DNA from: an uncultured Rhodocyclaceae bacterium
GTDB taxonomy: Bacteria; Pseudomonadota; Gammaproteobacteria; Burkholderiales; Rhodocyclaceae
DNA length: 64,000 bases
Assembly (NCBI GenBank): GCA_907163075.1
Contig: CAJQTY010000001.1
Location: forward strand, 744,001-808,000
Reading direction: 5' to 3'
Shown: in pieces, positions 5,810 through 64,000 of the stretch
How the letters are laid out: the number at the start of each line of letters is the position of its first letter
Position numbering within the stretch: the first letter of the stretch is position 1
The notes under the pieces: model-generated
The model's input: the letters and a program-made list of their open reading frames with translations, nothing else
The model's database searches: none
What the model was told of the DNA's origin: nothing
Translations under genes and position numbers: made by a program

Positions 5810-7564
5810 ATGAGCCGGAACGGTTCCGCAGAAAAACAGGTTTCGGATATCGACCTGACAGGCTTCAGCACCTATGAGGGGATGATCGCGTCGCTGCAGC
5901 AGGGGCTCGACCCCTTTGGCATGACAACTTCGATTGTCAACGCGCAAACGGCGTGGATGATGCATCCGCAGGAGTTGTCACGGGCGATCAGCGACATGTC
6001 CGGCGAAGTACTGGCCCTCCAGCTGCACCTCATTCGCCGTGCTGTCGGCATGACCGATCCGGATGTGATCAAACCGCACGCCGACGACGCACGCTTTCTC
6101 GACCCGCTGTGGAGCGACGTGCCGACGTGGGACATCATCAAGGAATCCTACCTGGCCTTGACCCACCGCCTTGAAAACATGCTCTTCGATACACCCGGTC
6201 TTTCGGACAAGGAGCGCAGGCGAGCCGCCTTCTGGGTGCGAAAGTGGCTCAACGCGATGGCGCCGACCAATTTCTTTTTCACCAACCCGGTCGCCATCCG
6301 CAAATACATCGAGACGAACGGCGAAAGTCTGAGAAAGGGTTTCGAGTACCTGATGCGTGACATCCGGGCCGGCAATATCAGCATGGTCGAGGACGATGCC
6401 TTCCAGGTCGGGACCGATCTGGCGACAACGCCGGGGCGTGTGGTTTTCCGTAACCGCATGCTTGAGCTGATCCACTACACGCCGACCACCGACAGCGTGC
6501 ACGAAACCCCGATCGTCATCATCACCCCGTGGATCAACAAGTTCTACATCCTTGATTTAACGCCAAAAAAGAGCATGGTCAAGTACCTTACCGACCACGG
6601 CTACAGCGTTTTCATCACCAGCTGGAAGAACCCCGGCGCCGACATGCGCGACGTCAGCTTCGACGATTACCTGTACGACGGCGTCGATCAGGTGATCAAC
6701 CGCGTGCGCGAGCTGTGCCATGTACCAAAGGTGCATCTGACCGGCTACTGCATTGGCGGCACCCTGGTCGCGACCTACGTGGCCTGGGCCAGCCGTCACT
6801 ATGGCGAGGAGAATACCCCGGTGGCGCACTGGACTCTGTTCACGACGCTGACCGATTTTTCCAAGCCAGGCGACATCGACGTTTTCATCGACGAGGGGGC
6901 GATTCGCGCGCTCGAGGAGAAAATGGCGAAAACCGGCTATCTCGACGGCGACGACATGGCCTCCAGCTTCCGCCTGCTGCGTTCGAACAGCCTGATCTGG
7001 CATTACTTCGAGCGCAGCTACCTGTTCGGCGAACCCCTGCCGGCCTTTGACGTGCTGTTCTGGAACATGGACACCACGCGCATGCCGGCGGCCATGCATT
7101 CCTTCTACCTGCGCGAAATGTACCTGCACAACAACCTGATGAAGCGCGACGCGCTGACCATCGCCGGCGAGCCGATCGACCTCGACCGCATCACCCAGCC
7201 GCTCTATGCGGTCAGCGCCGAGGACGATCACATCGTGCCGTGGCGGCAGTCCTACCGCATTCGCAAGTACATCAACATCAAGGCTCCGGTACGTTTCGTG
7301 CTGTCCACCTCGGGCCACATTCTCGGGATCGTCAATCCGGTCGTCAATCCGCCCAAGCGCAACTTCTGGGTCGGCGAACCCGAACGCAACGAGCACTTCG
7401 AACACTGGTTCGGACGTGCCGAGAAAAAGCCGGGATCATGGTGGGAGGACTGGCTGGCCTGGCTTTCGCCGCAGTGCGGCCCGATGGTCGCAGCGCCAGA
7501 TTGCAAGGCGGATGGCTATCCCAATCTCGGCCCGGCACCAGGAACCTACGTCTTCGAAAAGTAG
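5810..7564 (+). CDS. phaC: Class I poly(3-hydroxyalkanoate) synthase PhaC
   Basis: The 584-residue enzyme has the N-terminal PhaC domain and an alpha/beta-hydrolase catalytic domain with the lipase-like box GYCIGG, where the catalytic cysteine is residue 314. The catalytic aspartate lies in SAEDDHIVPW (about 472) and the histidine in TSGHILGIVNP (about 503). Length and motifs match class I synthases of the Cupriavidus necator type, which polymerise short-chain 3-hydroxyacyl-CoA at granule surfaces. The start is the ATG at 5810, with GGAG 6 bp before it; the in-frame GTG upstream is less likely. No phaA, phaB or phasin gene is adjacent. Confidence 0.95.
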   Translation: MSRNGSAEKQVSDIDLTGFSTYEGMIASLQQGLDPFGMTTSIVNAQTAWMMHPQELSRAISDMSGEVLALQLHLIRRAVGMTDPDVIKPHADDARFLDPLWSDVPTWDIIKESYLALTHRLENMLFDTPGLSDKERRRAAFWVRKWLNAMAPTNFFFTNPVAIRKYIETNGESLRKGFEYLMRDIRAGNISMVEDDAFQVGTDLATTPGRVVFRNRMLELIHYTPTTDSVHETPIVIITPWINKFYILDLTPKKSMVKYLTDHGYSVFITSWKNPGADMRDVSFDDYLYDGVDQVINRVRELCHVPKVHLTGYCIGGTLVATYVAWASRHYGEENTPVAHWTLFTTLTDFSKPGDIDVFIDEGAIRALEEKMAKTGYLDGDDMASSFRLLRSNSLIWHYFERSYLFGEPLPAFDVLFWNMDTTRMPAAMHSFYLREMYLHNNLMKRDALTIAGEPIDLDRITQPLYAVSAEDDHIVPWRQSYRIRKYINIKAPVRFVLSTSGHILGIVNPVVNPPKRNFWVGEPERNEHFEHWFGRAEKKPGSWWEDWLAWLSPQCGPMVAAPDCKADGYPNLGPAPGTYVFEK

Positions 7565-55854: not shown

Positions 55855-57054
55855 GTGGCGCAGCAGCCCATGGTGGCGGTCATCGGCGGCGGTCCGGCCG
55901 GCCTCATGGCGGCTGAAGTGCTCGGCCGCGCCGGCCTGCGCGTCGAGCTTTTCGACGCCATGCCCTCGCTGGGCCGCAAGTTCCTGATGGCCGGCAAGGG
56001 CGGAATGAACATCACGCACAGCGAAGCGCCGGCCGCCTTCCGCGCCCGCTACGGTGCACGCCGGGAGCGCATCTCGGGCCTGCTCGACGCCTTCGGGCCG
56101 GAGGCGTTGCGCGAATGGATTCATGGCCTTGGCATCGCCACTTTTGTCGGCAGTTCCGGGCGCGTCTTCCCCACCGACATGAAGGCCGCGCCGCTGCTGC
56201 GCGCCTGGCTGCACCGCCTGCGCGAAGCCCGCGTGGGCATTCATGTACGCCATCGCTGGTGCGGCATCGCCGCGCATGATGCGGGACCGTACCGACTGCG
56301 CTTTGCCACGCCCGCAGGCGAAAAGGACATCGAAGCCGACGCCGTGGTGCTGGCGCTTGGCGGCGGCAGTTGGACAAAACTCGGTTCGGACGGGCGCTGG
56401 ATCGGGCTGCTCGAAGCAGCCGGCGTGCCGGTCGCGCCGCTGCGTCCGTCCAACTGCGGTTTCGATGTGAACTGGAGCGAGCATCTGCGCGAGCGCTGCG
56501 CCGGCCAGCCGGTAAAGCCTGTTGTCGCTTTCTTCACCGATGCCGGCGGTACGCCGCATCGTCGGCAGGGCGAATTCGTGATCACCGCGAACGGCGTCGA
56601 AGGCGGCCTGATCTACGCCTTCTCGGCGCCGCTGCGCGACACCATCGAGCGAACCGGCAGCGTCACCCTGCACCTCGACCTGCTGCCCGGCCACGATCTG
56701 CCGCGCGTGCTGGCCGAAGTGGCGCATCCGCGCGCTTCGCGTTCGCTCTCCAGCCATCTGCACAGCCGGCTCGGGCTAAAAGGCGTGAAAATGGCGCTAC
56801 TGCACGAATGCGTTCCGCGCGAGGATTTTTCCGACGCGCAGCGACTCAGCCGGGCCATCAAGCCCTTGCCGCTACGCCTGGTGGCGCCGCGCCCGCTCGA
56901 GGAAGCGATCAGCAGCGCCGGCGGCGTGTGCTTCGAGGCGCTCGATGAGCGCCTGATGATCCGCTCGCTGCCCGGCGTTTTTGTCGCCGGCGAGATGCTG
57001 CGTCGGAATACGGAGCGCAGCGCTTGCCGAGTCTCCCAATTCGCACTCCACTAG
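55855..57054 (+). CDS. BaiN/HI0933-family flavoprotein, 3'-truncated
   Basis: The 399-residue protein shows the FAD-binding GGGPAGLMAAEVLGRAGL, SLGRKFLMAGKGGMNITHS, LALGGGSWTKLGSDG, and LRPSNCGFDVNWS of the HI0933/TIGR03862 oxidoreductase family. At GVFVAGEML the family normally continues with DWEAPTGGYLL and another 20-25 residues that complete the FAD site. Here it continues RRNTERSACRVSQFALH and stops. The gene is therefore cut at about 57000, which is also where the DGR region begins. It starts at a GTG 2 bp after murI. It is probably non-functional or altered. Confidence 0.85.
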   Translation: MAQQPMVAVIGGGPAGLMAAEVLGRAGLRVELFDAMPSLGRKFLMAGKGGMNITHSEAPAAFRARYGARRERISGLLDAFGPEALREWIHGLGIATFVGSSGRVFPTDMKAAPLLRAWLHRLREARVGIHVRHRWCGIAAHDAGPYRLRFATPAGEKDIEADAVVLALGGGSWTKLGSDGRWIGLLEAAGVPVAPLRPSNCGFDVNWSEHLRERCAGQPVKPVVAFFTDAGGTPHRRQGEFVITANGVEGGLIYAFSAPLRDTIERTGSVTLHLDLLPGHDLPRVLAEVAHPRASRSLSSHLHSRLGLKGVKMALLHECVPREDFSDAQRLSRAIKPLPLRLVAPRPLEEAISSAGGVCFEALDERLMIRSLPGVFVAGEMLRRNTERSACRVSQFALH

Positions 57055-57718: not shown

Positions 57719-58756
57719 ATGCTAATCAAAAAGATATTCCTGGCATCATCCGCTGAACTGAAAGACGATCGCGATCAGTTCGAAATCCTTATGTGCCGCA
57801 AGAACAAGGAATGGGTCAAACGGGACGTTTTTCTCGAACTCGTTATCTGGGAGGACTTTCTTGACGCGGTTTCCAGGACCCGGTTGCAGGACGAATACAA
57901 CCAGGCCATTCGCGACTGCGACATCTTCGCCATGCTCTTTTGGACGAAGGTGGGCAAATACACCGAGGAAGAATTCGAAACAGCCTTCAAGCAGTTCAAG
58001 GCCACCAACAAGCCCTTCATCTTCACCTATTTCAAAAAGCCACCGACTGGTGCTGACAACGCCAACGAGGAAGGTCAGACGAGCCTATCGGCCTTTCAGA
58101 AGAAACTGAAGGCACTGGGTCACTTCCAGACGGTCTACGAGAACACCGAAGGACTCTTGCTCCACTTCACACAGCAACTGGAAAAACTGGCGGATAGCGG
58201 ATTCATCGAGTTCAGGTGGGACGATGACCGACTCGGCAGCACGACTTATCAGGCGACACTCACCGGCGACGGTGCGATCGCTCAGGGTAAAGAGGCTATC
58301 GCAGTTGCCAAGGGCGGCGTCTTTGTCGGCGGCAAGAACACCGGCCGCATCAACACCGGCACCCAGACGAACATCGACACGGGCGGCGGTGCCTATGTCG
58401 GCGGAGGCGTGAATGTTCATGGTGGCGATTTCATCGGCCGTGACCAGGTCAAGATCAGCCACGGCGTTTCGCCGGGAGACCTGGAGCCGCTGTTCGCGGA
58501 GTTGCAGCGTGAGATAGAGAACAAGGCGCCGACCGGTACCCAGGCGGCCGCCGAGCAGCAAGTCAACAAACTCAAGTCCGAGATCGCCAAGGGCAAGCAG
58601 GCCGAAGACCGCAAGGTCGCCGGGATCATCGAAGGCTTGACCAAGATGGTACCCGGCGCCATCGGAACGGTCGTCAGCCTGTTCGCGACACCGATCCTCG
58701 GCGGGATTGTCGGACCGGTCACGAAGTACGTGCTCGACAAGCTGAAACCGGACTGA
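57719..58756 (+). CDS. DUF4062/TIR-like putative effector with glycine-rich repeats
   Basis: The 345-residue protein begins with a Rossmann-like domain (1-115): KKIFLASSAELKDDRDQF, LVIWEDFLDAVS, CDIFAMLFWTKVGKYTEEEFETAF and KPFIFTYFK. Strand order and the EEEFETAF acidic helix resemble DUF4062 and TIR-like domains. Residues about 180-245 are glycine-rich short beta repeats (KGGVFVGGKNTGRINTG, GGAYVGGGVNVHGGDFIGRD). A coiled coil follows, then a hydrophobic end (about 305-335, PGAIGTVVSLFATPILGGIV) that could insert in a membrane. It is the first gene of an operon with the NACHT protein 10 bp downstream. Effector function is inferred. Confidence 0.8.
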   Translation: MLIKKIFLASSAELKDDRDQFEILMCRKNKEWVKRDVFLELVIWEDFLDAVSRTRLQDEYNQAIRDCDIFAMLFWTKVGKYTEEEFETAFKQFKATNKPFIFTYFKKPPTGADNANEEGQTSLSAFQKKLKALGHFQTVYENTEGLLLHFTQQLEKLADSGFIEFRWDDDRLGSTTYQATLTGDGAIAQGKEAIAVAKGGVFVGGKNTGRINTGTQTNIDTGGGAYVGGGVNVHGGDFIGRDQVKISHGVSPGDLEPLFAELQREIENKAPTGTQAAAEQQVNKLKSEIAKGKQAEDRKVAGIIEGLTKMVPGAIGTVVSLFATPILGGIVGPVTKYVLDKLKPD

Positions 58757-58766
58757 AAGGCCGACG

Positions 58767-61568
58767 ATGGCAAGCGAACCGACAAACATCGACGCCCTAC
58801 AACGTCAGATCGCCGAGTTGCAGGCTCAACTGGCCACCGCCGAAGGTACCGCCAGCGCTCGTACGCAGAACATTACGACCGGCGGTGGCGCTGCCGTTCA
58901 GGGCCCGGTCGAGGTTTTTGGCGGCCATTTCATTGGCCGCGATTACTTGCAGTTCATCACTCATATCGTCAAATCCGGCGAAGACCCCGAAGAAGCGAAG
59001 TCGGTCATCGCACACTATCTGGAGGCACTGGTCACCGATCTGGCCGGGCTGAAACTGGGTGAAATCGACACCTCGGTCGACCAGACGAAAAAATCCCCGC
59101 TCGAACTCGCTGACATCTACGTGCCGCTCGATACCACGCTGAGCATTCTGCCGGACGCGACGCTCGCGGAATGGCTGGCGCTCGAGCGATCCATTCAGCG
59201 CGACGCAAGCAGTTCAGAGCGTGAGATGCGATCAGTTTCCGCACTGGAGGCGCTGGCCGAACATCGCGAGTTGACTTTGCTCGGCAAGCCCGGCAGCGGC
59301 AAGAGCACCTTCGGGGCGAGCGTATTGCTGGCGCTGGCGCAGGCCTGGCAAGGCCATGCCGAAGAACTGGCGAAACTCGGCGAAAGCTGGAAGCACGGCC
59401 CTCTGCTGCCGGTCCGCGTGATCCTGCGCCGCTTCGCCGAGCAACTGCCACCCGGCGAGCAGCCGGTGCGAGCGGGCGATCTCTGGGACTTCATCGGAAG
59501 CGAGCTCGACGCCAGCGCTTATGGCCTATCGTCCGATGCCATGAAGTACGTCCAGCGAATCGCGCGCGAGCATGGTGCGCTGATCCTGTTCGATGGCCTC
59601 GATGAGTGCGGCGACAGCACTCGTCGAGAGCGGGTGCTGTCGGCGGTAAAGGAACTGATGAAGAAAGCCGGAGCGAAATGCCGCTTCGTGCTCACCGCCC
59701 GGCCGTACGCCTGGCCCCGCGGCCCCGATCCCGCCGCCGGCGTCTATGTGCTGGCCGACCTTGATGACGCGCAGATCGAGCAGTTCATTCGCGCCTGGTA
59801 CGCCGCGCTGGTCAGGCGTAAGTGGCTGCCGCCCGCCAAGGCAGATGATAAGAGGGATGACCTGCTGGCGGCGCGGCATCGCCACGACCTGCTGCCGCTG
59901 GCGCAGAACCCCTTGCTGCTGACGCTGATGACCACCCTGCACACCAACGTCGGCCGTCTGCCGGACGACCGTGCCGACCTCTACGACAAGTCGGTGGAAC
60001 TGCTGATGCTGCGCTGGAACCGGCAGATCGGAGCCGACAAGGCATTGCTCGACGAATTGGCCGTGCCCGGGCTGAAACTCTCGGACCTGCGCGAGGTACT
60101 CGAGGAACTGGCCTACAAGGTGCATGAGCAGAACGTAGGGCGCGAAGGCGCCGCCGACATCGGCGAGGACCGGCTGGTACGCGCCTTCCGGCCACTGCTG
60201 AACGACAGCCGGGACAAGGCCGGCATCGTGGTCAACTACATCGAGAAACGTGCCGGTCTGCTGCTTGGGCAGGGCGAGAAGGATGGCGAACGGCAATTCA
60301 CCTTCCCGCATCGCACCTTCCAGGAATTCCTCGCCGCCTGCCATTTGGCCGCGCATCCTGAATTTCCGGCCGAATGCGTCCGCCTCGCCCGTAGCGCGCC
60401 AGCGCACTGGCAAGTCGTCCTGCCGCTGGCGGCGCGGCTGGCCAAGGCCGAGCGCGGCGCCAGCGCGGCTGACGAACTGATCGGTGGCCGCTCTATCGCC
60501 GAGTTCCGTACCCACCGCCGGCCGGTCGCCGAGGACTGGACCTGCGCCCGGCTCGCCGCCATGCAACTGGTGGAGATCGGGAGCGGTGCGATCAATAAGG
60601 GCGGGCGCACACGCGCCATCGCGGAACGCGTCGCCGGCTGGCTCGTCGCATCCTTGCCGGTGCACCCTGAAGACGGTGGCGCAACGGCCCACGAGCGTGC
60701 TCAGGCCGGAGACCTGCTCTCAGCGCTGGGCGACCCGCGCTTCGACCCGGAACGGTTTCATCTGCCGGCCGACGAATCCCTGGGCTTCGTGCGCATCGCC
60801 GCCGACCGCGAATTCCGGATCGGCACACGCCAGACGGACGCCAAGCGGGTAGCCTCGATCATCGAATATGACGTCCTTGACAATGAGATCAACGACGCGC
60901 CGACACCGACGCCGGACTTCTTCATTGCCCGTTATCCGGTGACCGTCGCGCAATTCCGCGCCTTCGTTGACGCAACAGGATTCGAAATCGACGACGCCGA
61001 TGCCCTGCGCGACCCCGATAACCGGCCGGTGCGCAACGTGAACTGGTACGAAGCCATGGCCTATTGCCACTGGCTGAATGACCTCTTCAGCCGGTCGACC
61101 GGGTTCGCTGGCGCCTCGATAGCGCGGCTGGTGCGCGCGCAGGAATGGCGGGTGGCCCTGTCGAGCGAACTCGAGTGGGAAAAAGCCGCGCGCGGCGGAT
61201 TGCGCGACGCGGTCTTTTCCTGGGGCGACTCGTCGGACCCGGAACGGGCGAACTATGGCGACTCGAACATTCGCGACACCTCTACGGTCGGCTGTTTTCC
61301 CGCCAACGGTTTCGGACTGCATGACATGATCGGCAACGTCTGGGAATGGACCCGTAGCTGCTGGTCGGACTATCCCTACGACGCAAGTAATGAGGTGCAG
61401 GCAGACCTACCTCCCGGCGATACAGATACAACTGTGCTCGTGCGCGGCGGCTCGTGGTTCTTCAATCGGGGCTTCGCGCGCTGTGCGATTCGCCGCGGGA
61501 GTCCCCCCGGCTCCCGTAACCTTAACTTCGGTTTTCGCGTGGTGTTGCGTTCTCCCCCTGTTTCGTGA
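58767..61568 (+). CDS. NACHT NTPase with C-terminal FGE-sulfatase domain, DGR target 1
   Basis: The 933-residue protein starts with a short coiled coil and a glycine-rich motif shared with its neighbour (VFGGHFIGRDY, about 50-60). A NACHT domain follows with Walker A GKPGSGKST (about 171-179), Walker B LILFDGLDECGD (about 271-282), VLTARPYAW and LLLTLMTTLH; a helical region continues to about 690. The C-terminus (about 690-933) is an FGE-sulfatase/C-type-lectin-like fold (FFIARYPVTVAQFRAFV, VNWYEAMAYCHWLN, GLHDMIGNVWEWTRS). The last 40 residues are the diversified variable repeat. It is a STAND-type sensor whose ligand tip is rewritten by the DGR. AAAGG precedes the ATG. Confidence 0.93.
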   Translation: MASEPTNIDALQRQIAELQAQLATAEGTASARTQNITTGGGAAVQGPVEVFGGHFIGRDYLQFITHIVKSGEDPEEAKSVIAHYLEALVTDLAGLKLGEIDTSVDQTKKSPLELADIYVPLDTTLSILPDATLAEWLALERSIQRDASSSEREMRSVSALEALAEHRELTLLGKPGSGKSTFGASVLLALAQAWQGHAEELAKLGESWKHGPLLPVRVILRRFAEQLPPGEQPVRAGDLWDFIGSELDASAYGLSSDAMKYVQRIAREHGALILFDGLDECGDSTRRERVLSAVKELMKKAGAKCRFVLTARPYAWPRGPDPAAGVYVLADLDDAQIEQFIRAWYAALVRRKWLPPAKADDKRDDLLAARHRHDLLPLAQNPLLLTLMTTLHTNVGRLPDDRADLYDKSVELLMLRWNRQIGADKALLDELAVPGLKLSDLREVLEELAYKVHEQNVGREGAADIGEDRLVRAFRPLLNDSRDKAGIVVNYIEKRAGLLLGQGEKDGERQFTFPHRTFQEFLAACHLAAHPEFPAECVRLARSAPAHWQVVLPLAARLAKAERGASAADELIGGRSIAEFRTHRRPVAEDWTCARLAAMQLVEIGSGAINKGGRTRAIAERVAGWLVASLPVHPEDGGATAHERAQAGDLLSALGDPRFDPERFHLPADESLGFVRIAADREFRIGTRQTDAKRVASIIEYDVLDNEINDAPTPTPDFFIARYPVTVAQFRAFVDATGFEIDDADALRDPDNRPVRNVNWYEAMAYCHWLNDLFSRSTGFAGASIARLVRAQEWRVALSSELEWEKAARGGLRDAVFSWGDSSDPERANYGDSNIRDTSTVGCFPANGFGLHDMIGNVWEWTRSCWSDYPYDASNEVQADLPPGDTDTTVLVRGGSWFFNRGFARCAIRRGSPPGSRNLNFGFRVVLRSPPVS
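61436..61556 (+). repeat. DGR variable repeat 1 (VR1)
   Basis: This 121-bp segment aligns without gaps to the template repeat at 63436-63556 (minus strand). It differs at 18 positions, every one of them an adenine in the template: 9 A to T, 5 A to G and 4 A to C. All 95 non-adenine positions are identical. It encodes residues about 890-930 of the NACHT-FGE protein. Confidence 0.97.
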
Positions 61569-61647
61569 CTCCGGGCTCTGCGTACTCTGTCCTCCGACCC
61601 TCTGCGTCCTCCGACTCTGGAGGGGGCGCGGGGGAGACTTCCCCCGC
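61557..61647 (+). promoter_or_regulatory. Candidate IMH-adjacent flank and hairpin downstream of VR1
   Basis: Immediately after VR1 the DNA is homologous to the flank after VR2 (CCTGTTT-GTGACTCCGG) but not to that after the template. It ends in a perfect hairpin at 61628-61647: GCGGGGGA, loop GACT, TCCCCCGC. An identical hairpin lies after VR2. In the Bordetella phage DGR, a short hairpin downstream of the IMH promotes target recognition, and this is the likely counterpart. Confidence 0.65.
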
Positions 61648-61669
61648 CTGCGCCGCAGGCGCTTTTTTT
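61645..61669 (+). terminator. Rho-independent terminator of the effector-NACHT operon
   Basis: CGCCTGC and GCAGGCG form a 7-bp stem with a 3-nt loop followed by C and eight T. It overlaps the last bases of the preceding hairpin and lies between the NACHT gene and the convergent RT gene. Confidence 0.8.
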
Positions 61670-61681
61670 TGCGCGTTGCGC

Positions 61682-62743
61682 TCACATAGCACGCGGCGAA
61701 ATCGGGTGCGTCGCAAACACATGCTCGCGCAAGCCCCAACTGTCCGCGTAGCGGGCATGATTAATCCAGCCTTGCACGCTGGCGTCGAGTTCGGCGAAGG
61801 AAATGCGCCCGTTCTGGTAGGCCTCCAGATTGGCCGCCAGCCGGCGGGTGAAATTCACCGCGTTGCGCCGCTTGAGCAGGCGGTGCGTCGGATAGACCAC
61901 GAAGCCCAGCCACGGGATGCCGCCGCGCGTTGGCACGACCTGCGTCTGGGCCTCGTGAATGGTCAGCCGCTCCTGCGCCAGACGGGCGATGATCCGCTGT
62001 TTACACGACCAAAGCTGGCGTTTGTCATCGCCGAACAGCACGAAATCATCGACGTAGCGCAGGTAGGCCGGGCAGCCGAGTTCGCGCTGAACGAACCAGT
62101 CGAAGTCGTTGAGATACACGTTCGACCAGAACTGCGAAGTGAGGTTGCCGATGGGCAATCCGCGCGGGCGGCACAGCGCCAGCAGGTCGTCACCGGGGAA
62201 ATACACCGGGGAGTACTGGTCCGCCAGCACGCCAGCGCCGCTGTCGAGAATGGCGTCGATCAGCCACAGCACCTCGTCCTCCTCAATCACGCGCGCCAGC
62301 TTGGCGCGCAGCAGCGCGTGATCCAGCGACGGAAAATGCTGGACGACATCGGCACGCAGGGCATAGCGATAACGCCGCCCCCAGGTTTGCAGCCGGTCGA
62401 GCGCCCGGTGCGTGCCCTTGCCGGTGCGGTTGGCATAGCTGTGAGTGATGAAGTGCAACTCGAAAAGCGGCTCGATGACGTTGCACAGCGCATGGTGGAT
62501 AACGCGGTCCTGAAACGGGGCGGCGCTGATCTTGCGCCGCTTTGGCTCATGAATAAAGAAGTTGCAGTAGGCACCCGGGCGGTAGCTTCGCTCCCGCAAC
62601 TGCGCCTGCAAGGCGATCAACCGGTCGGCAAGCTGGTGTTCGAAGCTCGCCGCGCTGGCCCGCCGTCGCTTGCCACGCGCAGCCAGCCGATAGGCCAGCG
62701 AAAGATTGTCCCAGGCGCAGATCGCGTCGAACATCGCCCCCAT
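61682..62743 (-). CDS. DGR reverse transcriptase
   Basis: The 353-residue protein is a retroelement RT with the DGR hallmark [19 protein letters not shown], where group II intron RTs have a QGGP/QGSP-type motif, and the catalytic [14 protein letters not shown]. Upstream motifs include [17 protein letters not shown] and the first catalytic aspartate in [18 protein letters not shown]; downstream is [13 protein letters not shown]. There is no maturase or endonuclease domain. GGGAGG lies 5 bp before the ATG. It should make A-mutagenised cDNA from the template RNA together with Avd. It is convergent with the NACHT gene and divergent from avd. Confidence 0.96.
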
Positions 62744-62778
62744 CCGATCCTCCCACCCCCCGAGTCGGCCGTCCCGTC

Positions 62779-63174
62779 ATGCCCAATGCCAAAGAACTGG
62801 TGATCTTCACCCAGACCTACGATCTTCTGACCTGGTTGCTGCCGCAGTGTGAGCACTTTCCAAAGAGCCAGCGCTTCGTCGTCACCCAGCGTCTGCAGGG
62901 CGCCGCGCTAGATTTTCAAGAAGCGATTTTCGATGCCAACGCACGTAGCGGCTTGCTGCGGCTGCAGCATCTGCAGGCCGCCGACGCACACCTGAACAAG
63001 CTGCGATTGTATCTGCGCCTGGCGCGCCAGTGGGAGTGGCTGAGCAGCGGCCAGTACGAGCACGTCAGCCGCCTGGTCGCGGGCATCGGCAGACTCCTGG
63101 GCGGCTGGATCAGGCAGACCAGCGTCGCCGCCGGTGGAGTCCGTGGGCGTAGGGGCGAACCCGAAGCAGGATGA
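62779..63174 (+). CDS. avd: DGR accessory protein Avd (four-helix bundle)
   Basis: The 131-residue protein matches the Avd/four-helix-bundle family: VIFTQTYDLLTWLLPQCEHFPKSQRFVVTQRL, then ALDFQEAIFDANAR, LNKLRLYLRLARQWEWLSSGQYEHVSRL and IGRLLGGWIRQT. Avd forms a positively charged pentamer that binds RT and template RNA and is required for cDNA synthesis. Unusually it is on the strand opposite the RT and template, starting 35 bp from the RT start. No strong ribosome-binding site is seen before the ATG. The last 15 residues (VRGRRGEPEAG) are beyond the conserved core. Confidence 0.92.
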   Translation: MPNAKELVIFTQTYDLLTWLLPQCEHFPKSQRFVVTQRLQGAALDFQEAIFDANARSGLLRLQHLQAADAHLNKLRLYLRLARQWEWLSSGQYEHVSRLVAGIGRLLGGWIRQTSVAAGGVRGRRGEPEAG

Positions 63175-63435
63175 GAAAGCTGATGGGGCGGGGCACGGCG
63201 GGCACTTTGGCCTGGTCGTGCCCCGGCTTGCCTATGCGCCCGGCGCTGGCGATGCCCCAATGTCGCCTTGCCTTGCGGCGTGCGCGCGGACCAGACCTGT
63301 CTGGCGCTGTTCTTCTTCCTTCGCCTCGGCGAACCAATCCGCAGATCGGCCCGCATTGCCGGAACGCGACCGGCCGGGTAAGCCGGCGCGCCGCCCCGCC
63401 TTGCGGCGGAACCAGAAGAAGGGGCGGAAGAACGT

Positions 63436-63556
63436 GGGAGAACGCAACACCACGCGAAAACCGATGTTATTGTTACGGTTGCCGGGGTGATTCCTGTTGC
63501 GAATCGCACAGCGCGCGTTGTCTCGATTGTTGTTCCACGAGCCGCCGCGCACGAGC
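63436..63556 (-). ncRNA. DGR template repeat (TR) within the presumed template RNA
   Basis: This is the 121-bp invariant template, read on the minus strand. It contains 26 adenines and ten AAY codons in the frame of the targets ([24 protein letters not shown]). Both variable repeats differ from it only at adenines. It lies about 150 bp after the second target gene and upstream of the RT on the same strand, with avd antisense between. The final 29 nt, GGTTTTCGCG onward, have no adenine and match both targets exactly, consistent with the priming side. Gap 63175-63703 otherwise shows no gene. Confidence 0.95.
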
Positions 63557-63624
63557 TTTCCAGACCGCCTGACCGGGCGTTGCCACCCGGCGACAAAATT
63601 ATAGCCGAGGAAGCGGCAGCGCCG

Positions 63625-63715
63625 GCGGGGGAAGTCTCCCCCGCACCCCCTCCGGAGGCGGAGTGATCCGAGCTTCGGAGGACGGAGTTTTCAGAGTCCG
63701 GAGTCACAAAACAGG
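63625..63715 (-). promoter_or_regulatory. Candidate IMH-adjacent flank and hairpin downstream of VR2
   Basis: On the minus strand the flank after VR2 repeats the pattern seen after VR1 (CCTGTTTTGTGACTCCGG) and ends in the same hairpin, GCGGGGGA-GACT-TCCCCCGC, at 63625-63644. The two flanks are clearly homologous over about 95 bp. Confidence 0.65.
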
Positions 63716-64000
63716 GGGAGAACGCAACACCACGCGAAAACCGAGGCTATTGACACGGCTGCCGGGGGGATCCCTGCCGCGAAACGCACAGCGCGCGAAG
63801 CCTCGAAAGCCGCTCCACGAGCCGCCGCGCACGAGCAGATCTGTATCGTCGGCTGTCAGGTCTGCCTGCACTTCATTGCGAGCGTCGTAGGGGTAATCCG
63901 CCCAGCGGCTACGGGTCCATTCCCAGACGTTGCCCGCCATGTCCAGGCAGCCATAAGGGCTGGCGCCGTTCAGGAAAATGCCGACTGGCGTCGTGCCCCC
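63704..64000 (-). CDS. FGE-sulfatase-domain protein, DGR target 2 (5' end outside window)
   Basis: The 98 visible residues are the C-terminal end of an FGE-sulfatase/C-type-lectin-like domain: TPVGIFLNGASPYGCLDMAGNVWEWTRS, WADYPYDARNEVQADL, then the variable repeat VRGGSWSGFRGFARCAFRG to [11 protein letters not shown]. The frame is open to the right edge, so the N-terminal part, which may include another NTPase or effector domain, cannot be seen. It shares about 45 residues before the VR with target 1 (WEWTRS-W-DYPYDA-NEVQADL). It is on the same strand as TR and RT. Confidence 0.9.
   Translation of the reverse strand, partial: GGTTPVGIFLNGASPYGCLDMAGNVWEWTRSRWADYPYDARNEVQADLTADDTDLLVRGGSWSGFRGFARCAFRGRDPPGSRVNSLGFRVVLRSPPVL
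63716..63836 (-). repeat. DGR variable repeat 2 (VR2)
   Basis: This 121-bp segment aligns gaplessly to the template on the same strand. It differs at 18 positions, all template adenines: 10 A to G, 6 A to T and 2 A to C. The 95 non-adenine positions are identical. It encodes the last 40 or so residues of target 2. Confidence 0.97.

Follow-up and report, generated by a model that had tools for sequence, protein, structure and literature searches.

A complete diversity-generating retroelement with two NACHT-FGE targets in an uncultured Rhodocyclaceae bacterium, and a candidate target-site element behind its variable repeats

An uncultured Rhodocyclaceae bacterium carries a complete diversity-generating retroelement (DGR) that has rewritten the 3′ ends of two flanking NACHT-FGE genes. 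The element lies in the stretch of 64,000 nt analysed here, hereafter the window (GCA_907163075.1, contig CAJQTY010000001.1, positions 744,001 to 808,000). It consists of a template repeat (TR; 63436-63556, minus strand), two variable repeats (VR1; 61436-61556, plus strand, and VR2; 63716-63836, minus strand), and genes for a reverse transcriptase (RT) and the accessory protein Avd. Each variable repeat differs from the template only at template adenines, and each is followed by short, pyrimidine-rich units arrayed in phase and then by a hairpin; together, array and hairpin may form part of the site recognized during homing.

Adenine-directed variation in the two variable repeats

In 121-nt alignments without gaps, VR1 and VR2 each differ from the TR at 18 positions, and 36/36 differences fall on template adenines. 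The TR holds 26 adenines and 95 other bases, and 0 of 190 comparisons at non-adenine positions differ; the probability that 18/18 differences would fall on 26 adenines of 121 by chance is 1.2e-15 per VR. Changes in VR1 comprise nine A>T, five A>G and four A>C, and those in VR2 ten A>G, six A>T and two A>C. All but one of the template adenines (25/26) are altered in at least one VR, A89 being unaltered in both. The initial annotation, which had reported 18 differences per repeat, no indels and none at the 95 non-adenine positions, was thus correct to the base, and realignment revealed no substitution at a non-adenine position. Its argument that contrasting substitution spectra show independent events did not survive in that form, as the contrast is not significant (chi-square P=0.23); independence is supported instead by the 20 positions at which VR1 and VR2 differ. 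Eleven template sites are altered in both VRs, with the same base at five and a different base at six.

The 3′ ends of the two targets are paralogous (273/334 columns identical, 82%); with the VRs excluded, identity is 172/213 (273/334 minus 101/121). Because these flanks are only 172/213 identical, the 95/95 non-adenine identity inside the VRs would not be expected without copying from the TR (P about 1.5e-9 at the flank divergence rate). The absence of any non-adenine difference despite 19% flank divergence also supports fairly recent homing at both VRs. The element had been called evidently active; past retrohoming stands on the 36/36 differences at adenines, while present activity does not follow, as one genome records past events only.

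A finder script permitting mismatches at adenines only, not restricted to changes to C, returned exactly two pairs from the 20-kb host locus (L009), TR/VR1 and TR/VR2, which are the pairs originally claimed. It extended both to 126 nt, adding three 5′ adenines, which may belong to the TR, and one 3′ adenine. The latter is A in the TR and C in both VRs and marks the IMH*/IMH (initiation of mutagenic homing) boundary, so that the host repeats show an adenine-free 3′ block followed by the expected IMH/IMH* difference. When the whole host genome (5.2 Mb, four contigs) was searched with the TR, the three strong matches were TR, VR1 and VR2; the next match had E 0.29, and no further VR was found above chance. 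The same finder gave adenine-only pairs in 19/23 loci and none in L013, L040, L042 and L044; with shorter runs permitted, L013 gave one weak 58-nt pair. Directly past the 3′ block, the base was A in the TR and C in the VR in 21/21 printed pairs reaching that base (23 printed; L010 and L011 entered separately), from Proteobacteria to Chloroflexi.

Reverse transcriptase, Avd and cassette order

DGR-type RTs are characterized by the motif [I/L/V]GxxxSQ. The RT of the window (61682..62743, minus strand; 353 aa; RVT_1 1.3e-14) carries IGNLTSQ together with YVDDF. Across an alignment of 11 RTs, the host enzyme and ten relatives, every sequence has IGNLTS and the catalytic DD; the Q after IGNLTS is retained in 10/11, and YVDD in 10/11 (YADD in L018). 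Avd (62779..63174, plus strand; 131 aa) matches the NCBIfam model DivGenRetAVD (NF033474) at 92.6 bits, above the cut-off of 80, and is encoded between TR and RT on the strand opposite to RT. RT, Avd, TR and IMH boundary are all present and intact, and the element is a genuine, complete DGR; the earlier reading of adenine-directed mutagenic retrohoming, with an RT bearing the DGR motif and an Avd beside the repeats, is upheld by the repeat pattern, the protein matches and the motif alignment. Two other RT matches in the host genome are 30% identical, and Rfam at gathering thresholds gave no match in the window. A phage origin was rejected: no relative was confirmed among viral contigs, and although 156 phage records match the RT, the best 10 of the 156 are at most 38% identical.

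The antisense position of avd is shared by 19/23 loci (window included; L010 and L011 entered separately), and in all 15 of these 19 where the finder gave a TR, avd is located between TR and RT. It is codirectional with RT in L016, L017, L046 and L047. Codirectional avd genes are also found, as annotated, in Nostoc, Prosthecochloris, Ideonella and Acaryochloris, as well as in L094 and L095, in Fischerella (as an unannotated open reading frame, ORF, at the corresponding place) and in phage BPP-1, where we take bbp7 to be Avd; for this reason the antisense placement looks derived. Variable cassette order was already noted in DiGReF, where Accumulibacter holds different types (PMC3521204).

The targets and a neighboring putative effector

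Target 1 (58767..61568, plus strand; 933 aa) combines a NACHT domain (Pfam 2.4e-10) with a C-terminal FGE-sulfatase domain (C-type lectin; 1.2e-46), and VR1 lies at its 3′ end. Target 2 runs in from the other side on the minus strand; its 3′ end occupies 63704..64000 and the gene, which encodes a NACHT-FGE protein of 926 aa, extends beyond the window (L009 7704-10484). The FGE domain of target 1, as modeled (mean pLDDT, the predicted local distance difference test score, 77), matches formylglycine-generating enzymes and TvpA, a variable protein of Treponema (2y3c; E 1.6e-8), with a weak match to Mtd of BPP-1 (1yu4; E 7.5e-3). By predicted domain content, both targets are immune-sensor-like proteins resembling NOD-like receptors (NLRs), rewritten at their tips.

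Ten base pairs before target 1 ends a gene for a TIR-like/DUF4062-like putative effector (57719..58756, plus strand; 345 aa), with a Gly-rich tag at about residues 178-250 and, in a low-confidence model, a helical C-terminal end. The protein matches PADLOC PDC-S60 at E 2.9e-12, and its relatives give weak DUF4062 and TIR_2 matches. In L010, L011, L012 and L036, NACHT-FGE targets carry the TIR-like domain as an N-terminal fusion, and a target in L013 begins with a caspase domain (Peptidase_C14 3.2e-16). The assignment to TIR is weak: TIR_2 matches the window protein below the cut-off (E 6e-4; 20.8 bits versus a Pfam cut-off of 28, the best scanned relative reaching 25.6), and its low-confidence model (mean pLDDT 58) gave no fold match at E<=1e-3, the best being small GTPases and nucleoside deoxyribosyltransferases.

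The Gly-rich stretch, which is unstructured in the low-confidence model and lies in a region of the TIR-like protein with no Pfam match, reappears in targets 1 and 2, close to the N-terminus of each. It was found in 27 ORFs of the loci scanned, many of which (L070-L081) were chosen because the stretch had already been found in them, and in 11/395 sampled genomes of the family, some with adjacent effector/NACHT pairs (L073, L074, L075). In Thiodictyon, it forms the C-terminus of a caspase gene (Peptidase_C14 5.9e-15) directly upstream of a NACHT-FGE target that is split over two ORFs. This layout is as would be expected if the stretch acted as a homotypic adaptor joining exchangeable effectors to a single type of sensor. 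Directly upstream of target 2, a 192-aa ORF (L009 10499-11077, minus strand) with no Pfam match resembles, over part of its length, the tag region of the TIR-like protein (E 4e-5).

Further out, two inward-facing flavoprotein paralogs flank the DGR island (window 55855-57054 and L009 11349-12599; 60.6% identical over 378 aa). The C-terminal end of the right copy is missing from the left one, an absence that may mark the edge of the island. ARAGORN placed a tRNA-Arg(tcg) at window 56371-56447 (minus strand), antisense inside the left flavoprotein ORF, which is possibly a false call.

A phased array and hairpin behind the variable repeats

Outside the repeat, between each VR and a hairpin, the host carries an array of CTCYG units: seven behind VR1 (61569..61619, plus strand), at offsets 12, 19, 28, 35, 43, 52 and 58, and six behind VR2 (63653..63703, minus strand), at offsets 12, 19, 28, 35, 52 and 58. 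Spacing is 6-9 nt, with one gap of 17. Behind both VRs, the array is followed by GGAGGGGG and then by the hairpin GCGGGGGA-GACT-TCCCCCGC, 71 nt from the VR (61628..61647, plus strand, and, with the same sequence, 63625..63644, minus strand). Its 8-bp stem fits the GC-rich 7-10 bp described for phage-type target hairpins (Guo 2011), while the GACT loop and the distance of 71 nt fall outside the 4-nt GRNA loop and 4-34 bp of the same description. Hairpins of phage DGRs lie 4-34 bp from the VR with GRNA loops (PMC3240598), and those of Nanoarchaeota-type DGRs have GRA loops (PMC4372165). A second stem-loop followed by T8 (61645..61670, plus strand), overlapping the last bases of the VR1 hairpin, is likely to be the intrinsic terminator of target 1.

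Relatives of the array span a range of lineages from the Betaproteobacteria to the Chloroflexi. Counts of the looser unit CNCYG came to 115 over 19 VR flanks (13 loci), compared with 39 +/- 4.7 when dinucleotides were shuffled (maximum 50 of 200 shuffles), and 13 TR flanks hold 22; CTCTG occurs 49 times versus 16 +/- 3.2 and is found 0 times in the 13 TR flanks. The register is also retained: nine other representatives fill 35/63 window offsets (+/-1), with 5.8 +/- 2.2 expected (maximum 13 of 2000), and seven more distant ones fill 24/49, with 4.5 +/- 1.9 expected (maximum 12 of 2000). Sliding the offsets by -1, 0 and +1 gave 7, 7 and 10 exact matches, respectively, compared with 1-4 for shifts of 2-5. 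A hairpin of at least 7 bp starting 35-80 nt behind the VR was found for 18/19 VRs versus 77/3900 random stretches of the same loci; the sequence of the stem varies between lineages. In cyanobacteria and some others, the VR flanks hold units of other sequence and similar period (e.g., CCCTTTA, ATCTTTG, TTTCTGG), and a 4-mer lag test at lags 7 to 9 gave P<=0.05 in 22/34 VR flanks versus 2/22 TR flanks.

A strict pattern, CTCYGNNCTCYGN{3,4}CTCYGNNCTCYG, had 10 matches in 297 genomes of the family and 0 with the reversed control. Nine of the 10 lie directly behind FGE target genes, the remaining one being a low-complexity repeat (G285). The two matches in the host genome are the two VR flanks, and the two further host FGE genes above cut-off (one with an internal stop) have no array. 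The idea that the array pairs with the TR transcript is not supported, the TR neighborhood searched having no CAGAG and one CGGAG.

Several observations speak against a role of the array in homing. The CTCYG unit was picked after inspection of the same flanks, and paralogous and near-identical VRs were entered separately in the counts. The strict pattern is present in only 3/9 family genomes with a close RT, and one match in the additional loci (L072) is not preceded by an FGE match. In the lag test, 12/34 VR flanks miss P<=0.05, including window VR1 (P 0.127), Nostoc, Ideonella and BPP-1. Array offsets are shifted by 2-4 nt in L039 and L045, L015 has two units only, L018 has no hairpin of at least 7 bp behind its VR, and such hairpins within 110 nt were found in 0/6 VR flanks of Fischerella, Nostoc and Acaryochloris (full 3′ ends) and 0/2 of G504.

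With these points in the balance, we propose tentatively, at slightly worse than even chances, that cellular DGR target sites carry an undescribed bipartite cis-element. One part would be an array of short units rich in pyrimidines and phased at intervals of mostly 7-9 nt (CTCYG in the window; for example CCTTT, CTTTG or TTCTGG elsewhere); the other, present in many lineages, would be a GC-rich hairpin some 50-75 nt downstream of the VR. Such an element would mark the genes accessible to mutagenic homing and would change with RT lineage, and could therefore reveal targets even without a nearby RT. A limited literature search, including the available parts of PMC10907252, PMC3240598, PMC3521204, PMC4372165 and PMC8144416, with supplements and most full texts outside its scope, found no description of a phased array.

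Distribution of related loci

Ten named loci carry a close RT: four in metagenome-assembled genomes (MAGs) of Ca. Accumulibacter (77-80% identity), four of Chloroflexi type, going by their titles (Thermoflexus, Chloroflexi and two Anaerolineae MAGs), one in Burkholderiales and one in Thiodictyon. Two of the Accumulibacter loci, in the MAGs of Ca. Accumulibacter regalis (L010) and appositus (L011), differ at nine columns in all between L010 4341 and 15086, all at 6071-6100, and may represent one shared or mis-binned contig.

Array and hairpin also stand behind NACHT-FGE or FGE genes in G182 (L099/L073), G389 (L074), G324 (L076 and L079) and G364 (L072 and L078). No RT was found at E<=1e-100 in G182; the RT search took in G182 and did not extend to G324, G364 and G389. 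Short RT remnants are seen in L076 and L078. Within that scope of the RT search, the array-bearing FGE genes of these four genomes are candidate orphan or decayed DGR targets. A second DGR-like place was noted in L096 (G045; 6136-6426), where partial RT and Avd matches lie between two FGE genes.

Proposed mechanism and alternatives

Very probably, the window holds a cellular DGR in which the TR serves as template for mutagenic homing into the 3′ ends of the two flanking NACHT-FGE genes, with the variable FGE domain as ligand sensor, signaling through NACHT and effector, and array and hairpin within the target site; the later parts of this scheme are inferred. The RT, with Avd, would copy a TR transcript, random bases entering at template adenines, and the cDNA would replace the VR at the 3′ end of either gene flanking the cassette. 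The variable FGE surface would bind ligands, which are probably phage molecules or foreign ones of another kind. Oligomerization of the NACHT domain would follow and an effector would be switched on; in the window this is probably the TIR-like protein, encoded by a gene of its own and recruited via the common Gly-rich tag. The retrohoming machinery may recognize array and hairpin as part of its target site.

Ordinary gene conversion between paralogs combined with selection, without reverse transcription, might seem compatible with target 3′ ends that are 82% identical over 334 columns, but it fails to explain 36/36 differences at template adenines with 95/95 identity elsewhere and, already contradicted by them, deserves next to no credence. 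A DGR that fired in the past and is now silent, its VRs being frozen alleles, is a more serious prospect, and still an unlikely one. Several findings lean toward silence: the record is a single genome, VR states in L010 and L011 are identical, and array-bearing FGE targets occur in genomes without a listed close RT, such as G182. A close RT at E<=1e-100 is moreover rare in the family (9/297 sampled genomes, host included), as is a match to it at 1e-30 in the genus (3/28, host included), and with RT so scarce in its neighborhood the locus could be an acquired element no longer used. Set against this, the RT and Avd frames are intact with their motifs retained, and 0/190 non-adenine comparisons differ although the flanks are 19% divergent.

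Two further alternatives concern parts of the scheme, and each is somewhat unlikely, by a narrow step less so than a silenced element. Array and hairpin could be merely the transcription terminator of the target genes, a pyrimidine-rich Rho-type array followed by a stem-loop, with no part in homing. Regular YC-rich stretches resemble Rho sites, both features sit in the 3′ untranslated region, T runs follow the hairpin in some lineages (L039, L041, L043, L045), and a terminator-like stem with T8 stands directly behind VR1. A terminator does not, however, account readily for a strict array behind the two VRs only and absent behind the host's two other FGE genes, for TR flanks without an array, or for a unit register retained across phyla; in BPP-1, homing requires the hairpin behind the VR (PMC3240598). 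The targets, for their part, could be regulators or self/non-self labels of aggregates, for example, rather than immune sensors, with the TIR-like gene a mere neighbor, and the paper proposing antigen sensing itself says that this proposal remains to be tested (PMC10907252). Against such roles, NACHT proteins with a neighboring TIR-like gene carrying a common tag, the domain fusion in relatives and the swapped caspase-like partners fit conflict systems.

Comparison with known systems and significance

The window element is known in kind: it is a cellular DGR with two NACHT-FGE targets, as in clade 5 of Dore 2024 (PMC10907252), assigned by target architecture. As in DGR 3 and DGR 6 of Thiohalocapsa PB-PSB1, there are two targets, each with one C-terminal CLec (C-type lectin)/FGE domain and a central NACHT/STAND domain, and a neighboring effector (PMC10907252), putative in the window; the pair of single-CLec targets with central STAND/NACHT that distinguishes clade 5D is found here. 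Whereas DGR 3 has no identified adapter, the window offers an effector candidate, the TIR-like gene with its common Gly-rich tag. Accumulibacter is named among organisms with multiple related DGRs (PMC10907252).

The DGR of BPP-1 likewise comprises TR, VR, RT, an Avd-like gene and a hairpin behind the VR, but is phage-borne with a tail protein as target, whereas the window DGR is cellular with NACHT-FGE targets. In BPP-1, the hairpin has a GAAA loop and starts 4 nt after the VR, with no array, in contrast to 71 nt, a GACT loop and an intervening array here; avd is codirectional in BPP-1 and antisense in the window, and the RTs are 36% identical. The tag recalls the adaptor pairs BASS (bacterial amyloid signaling sequence) and EAD (effector-associated domain), in which one short tag is shared by an effector and the N-terminus of adjacent NACHT proteins and effectors are exchangeable (PMC7889193, PMC10907252). 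Its sequence is different, Gly-rich and about 70 aa long, and the likeness is one of layout.

Two aspects deserve a second look: the combination of phased array and hairpin behind the VRs, and the tag common to effector and sensors. If the RT-Avd complex does read the array, target sites, orphan ones included, could be found and tested directly, and a tag common to TIR-like and caspase-like genes and to sensors would make the signaling step testable. The DGR described here adds one more clean case of bacterial hypermutation of NLR-like sensors, which are candidates for an adaptive repertoire in bacteria.

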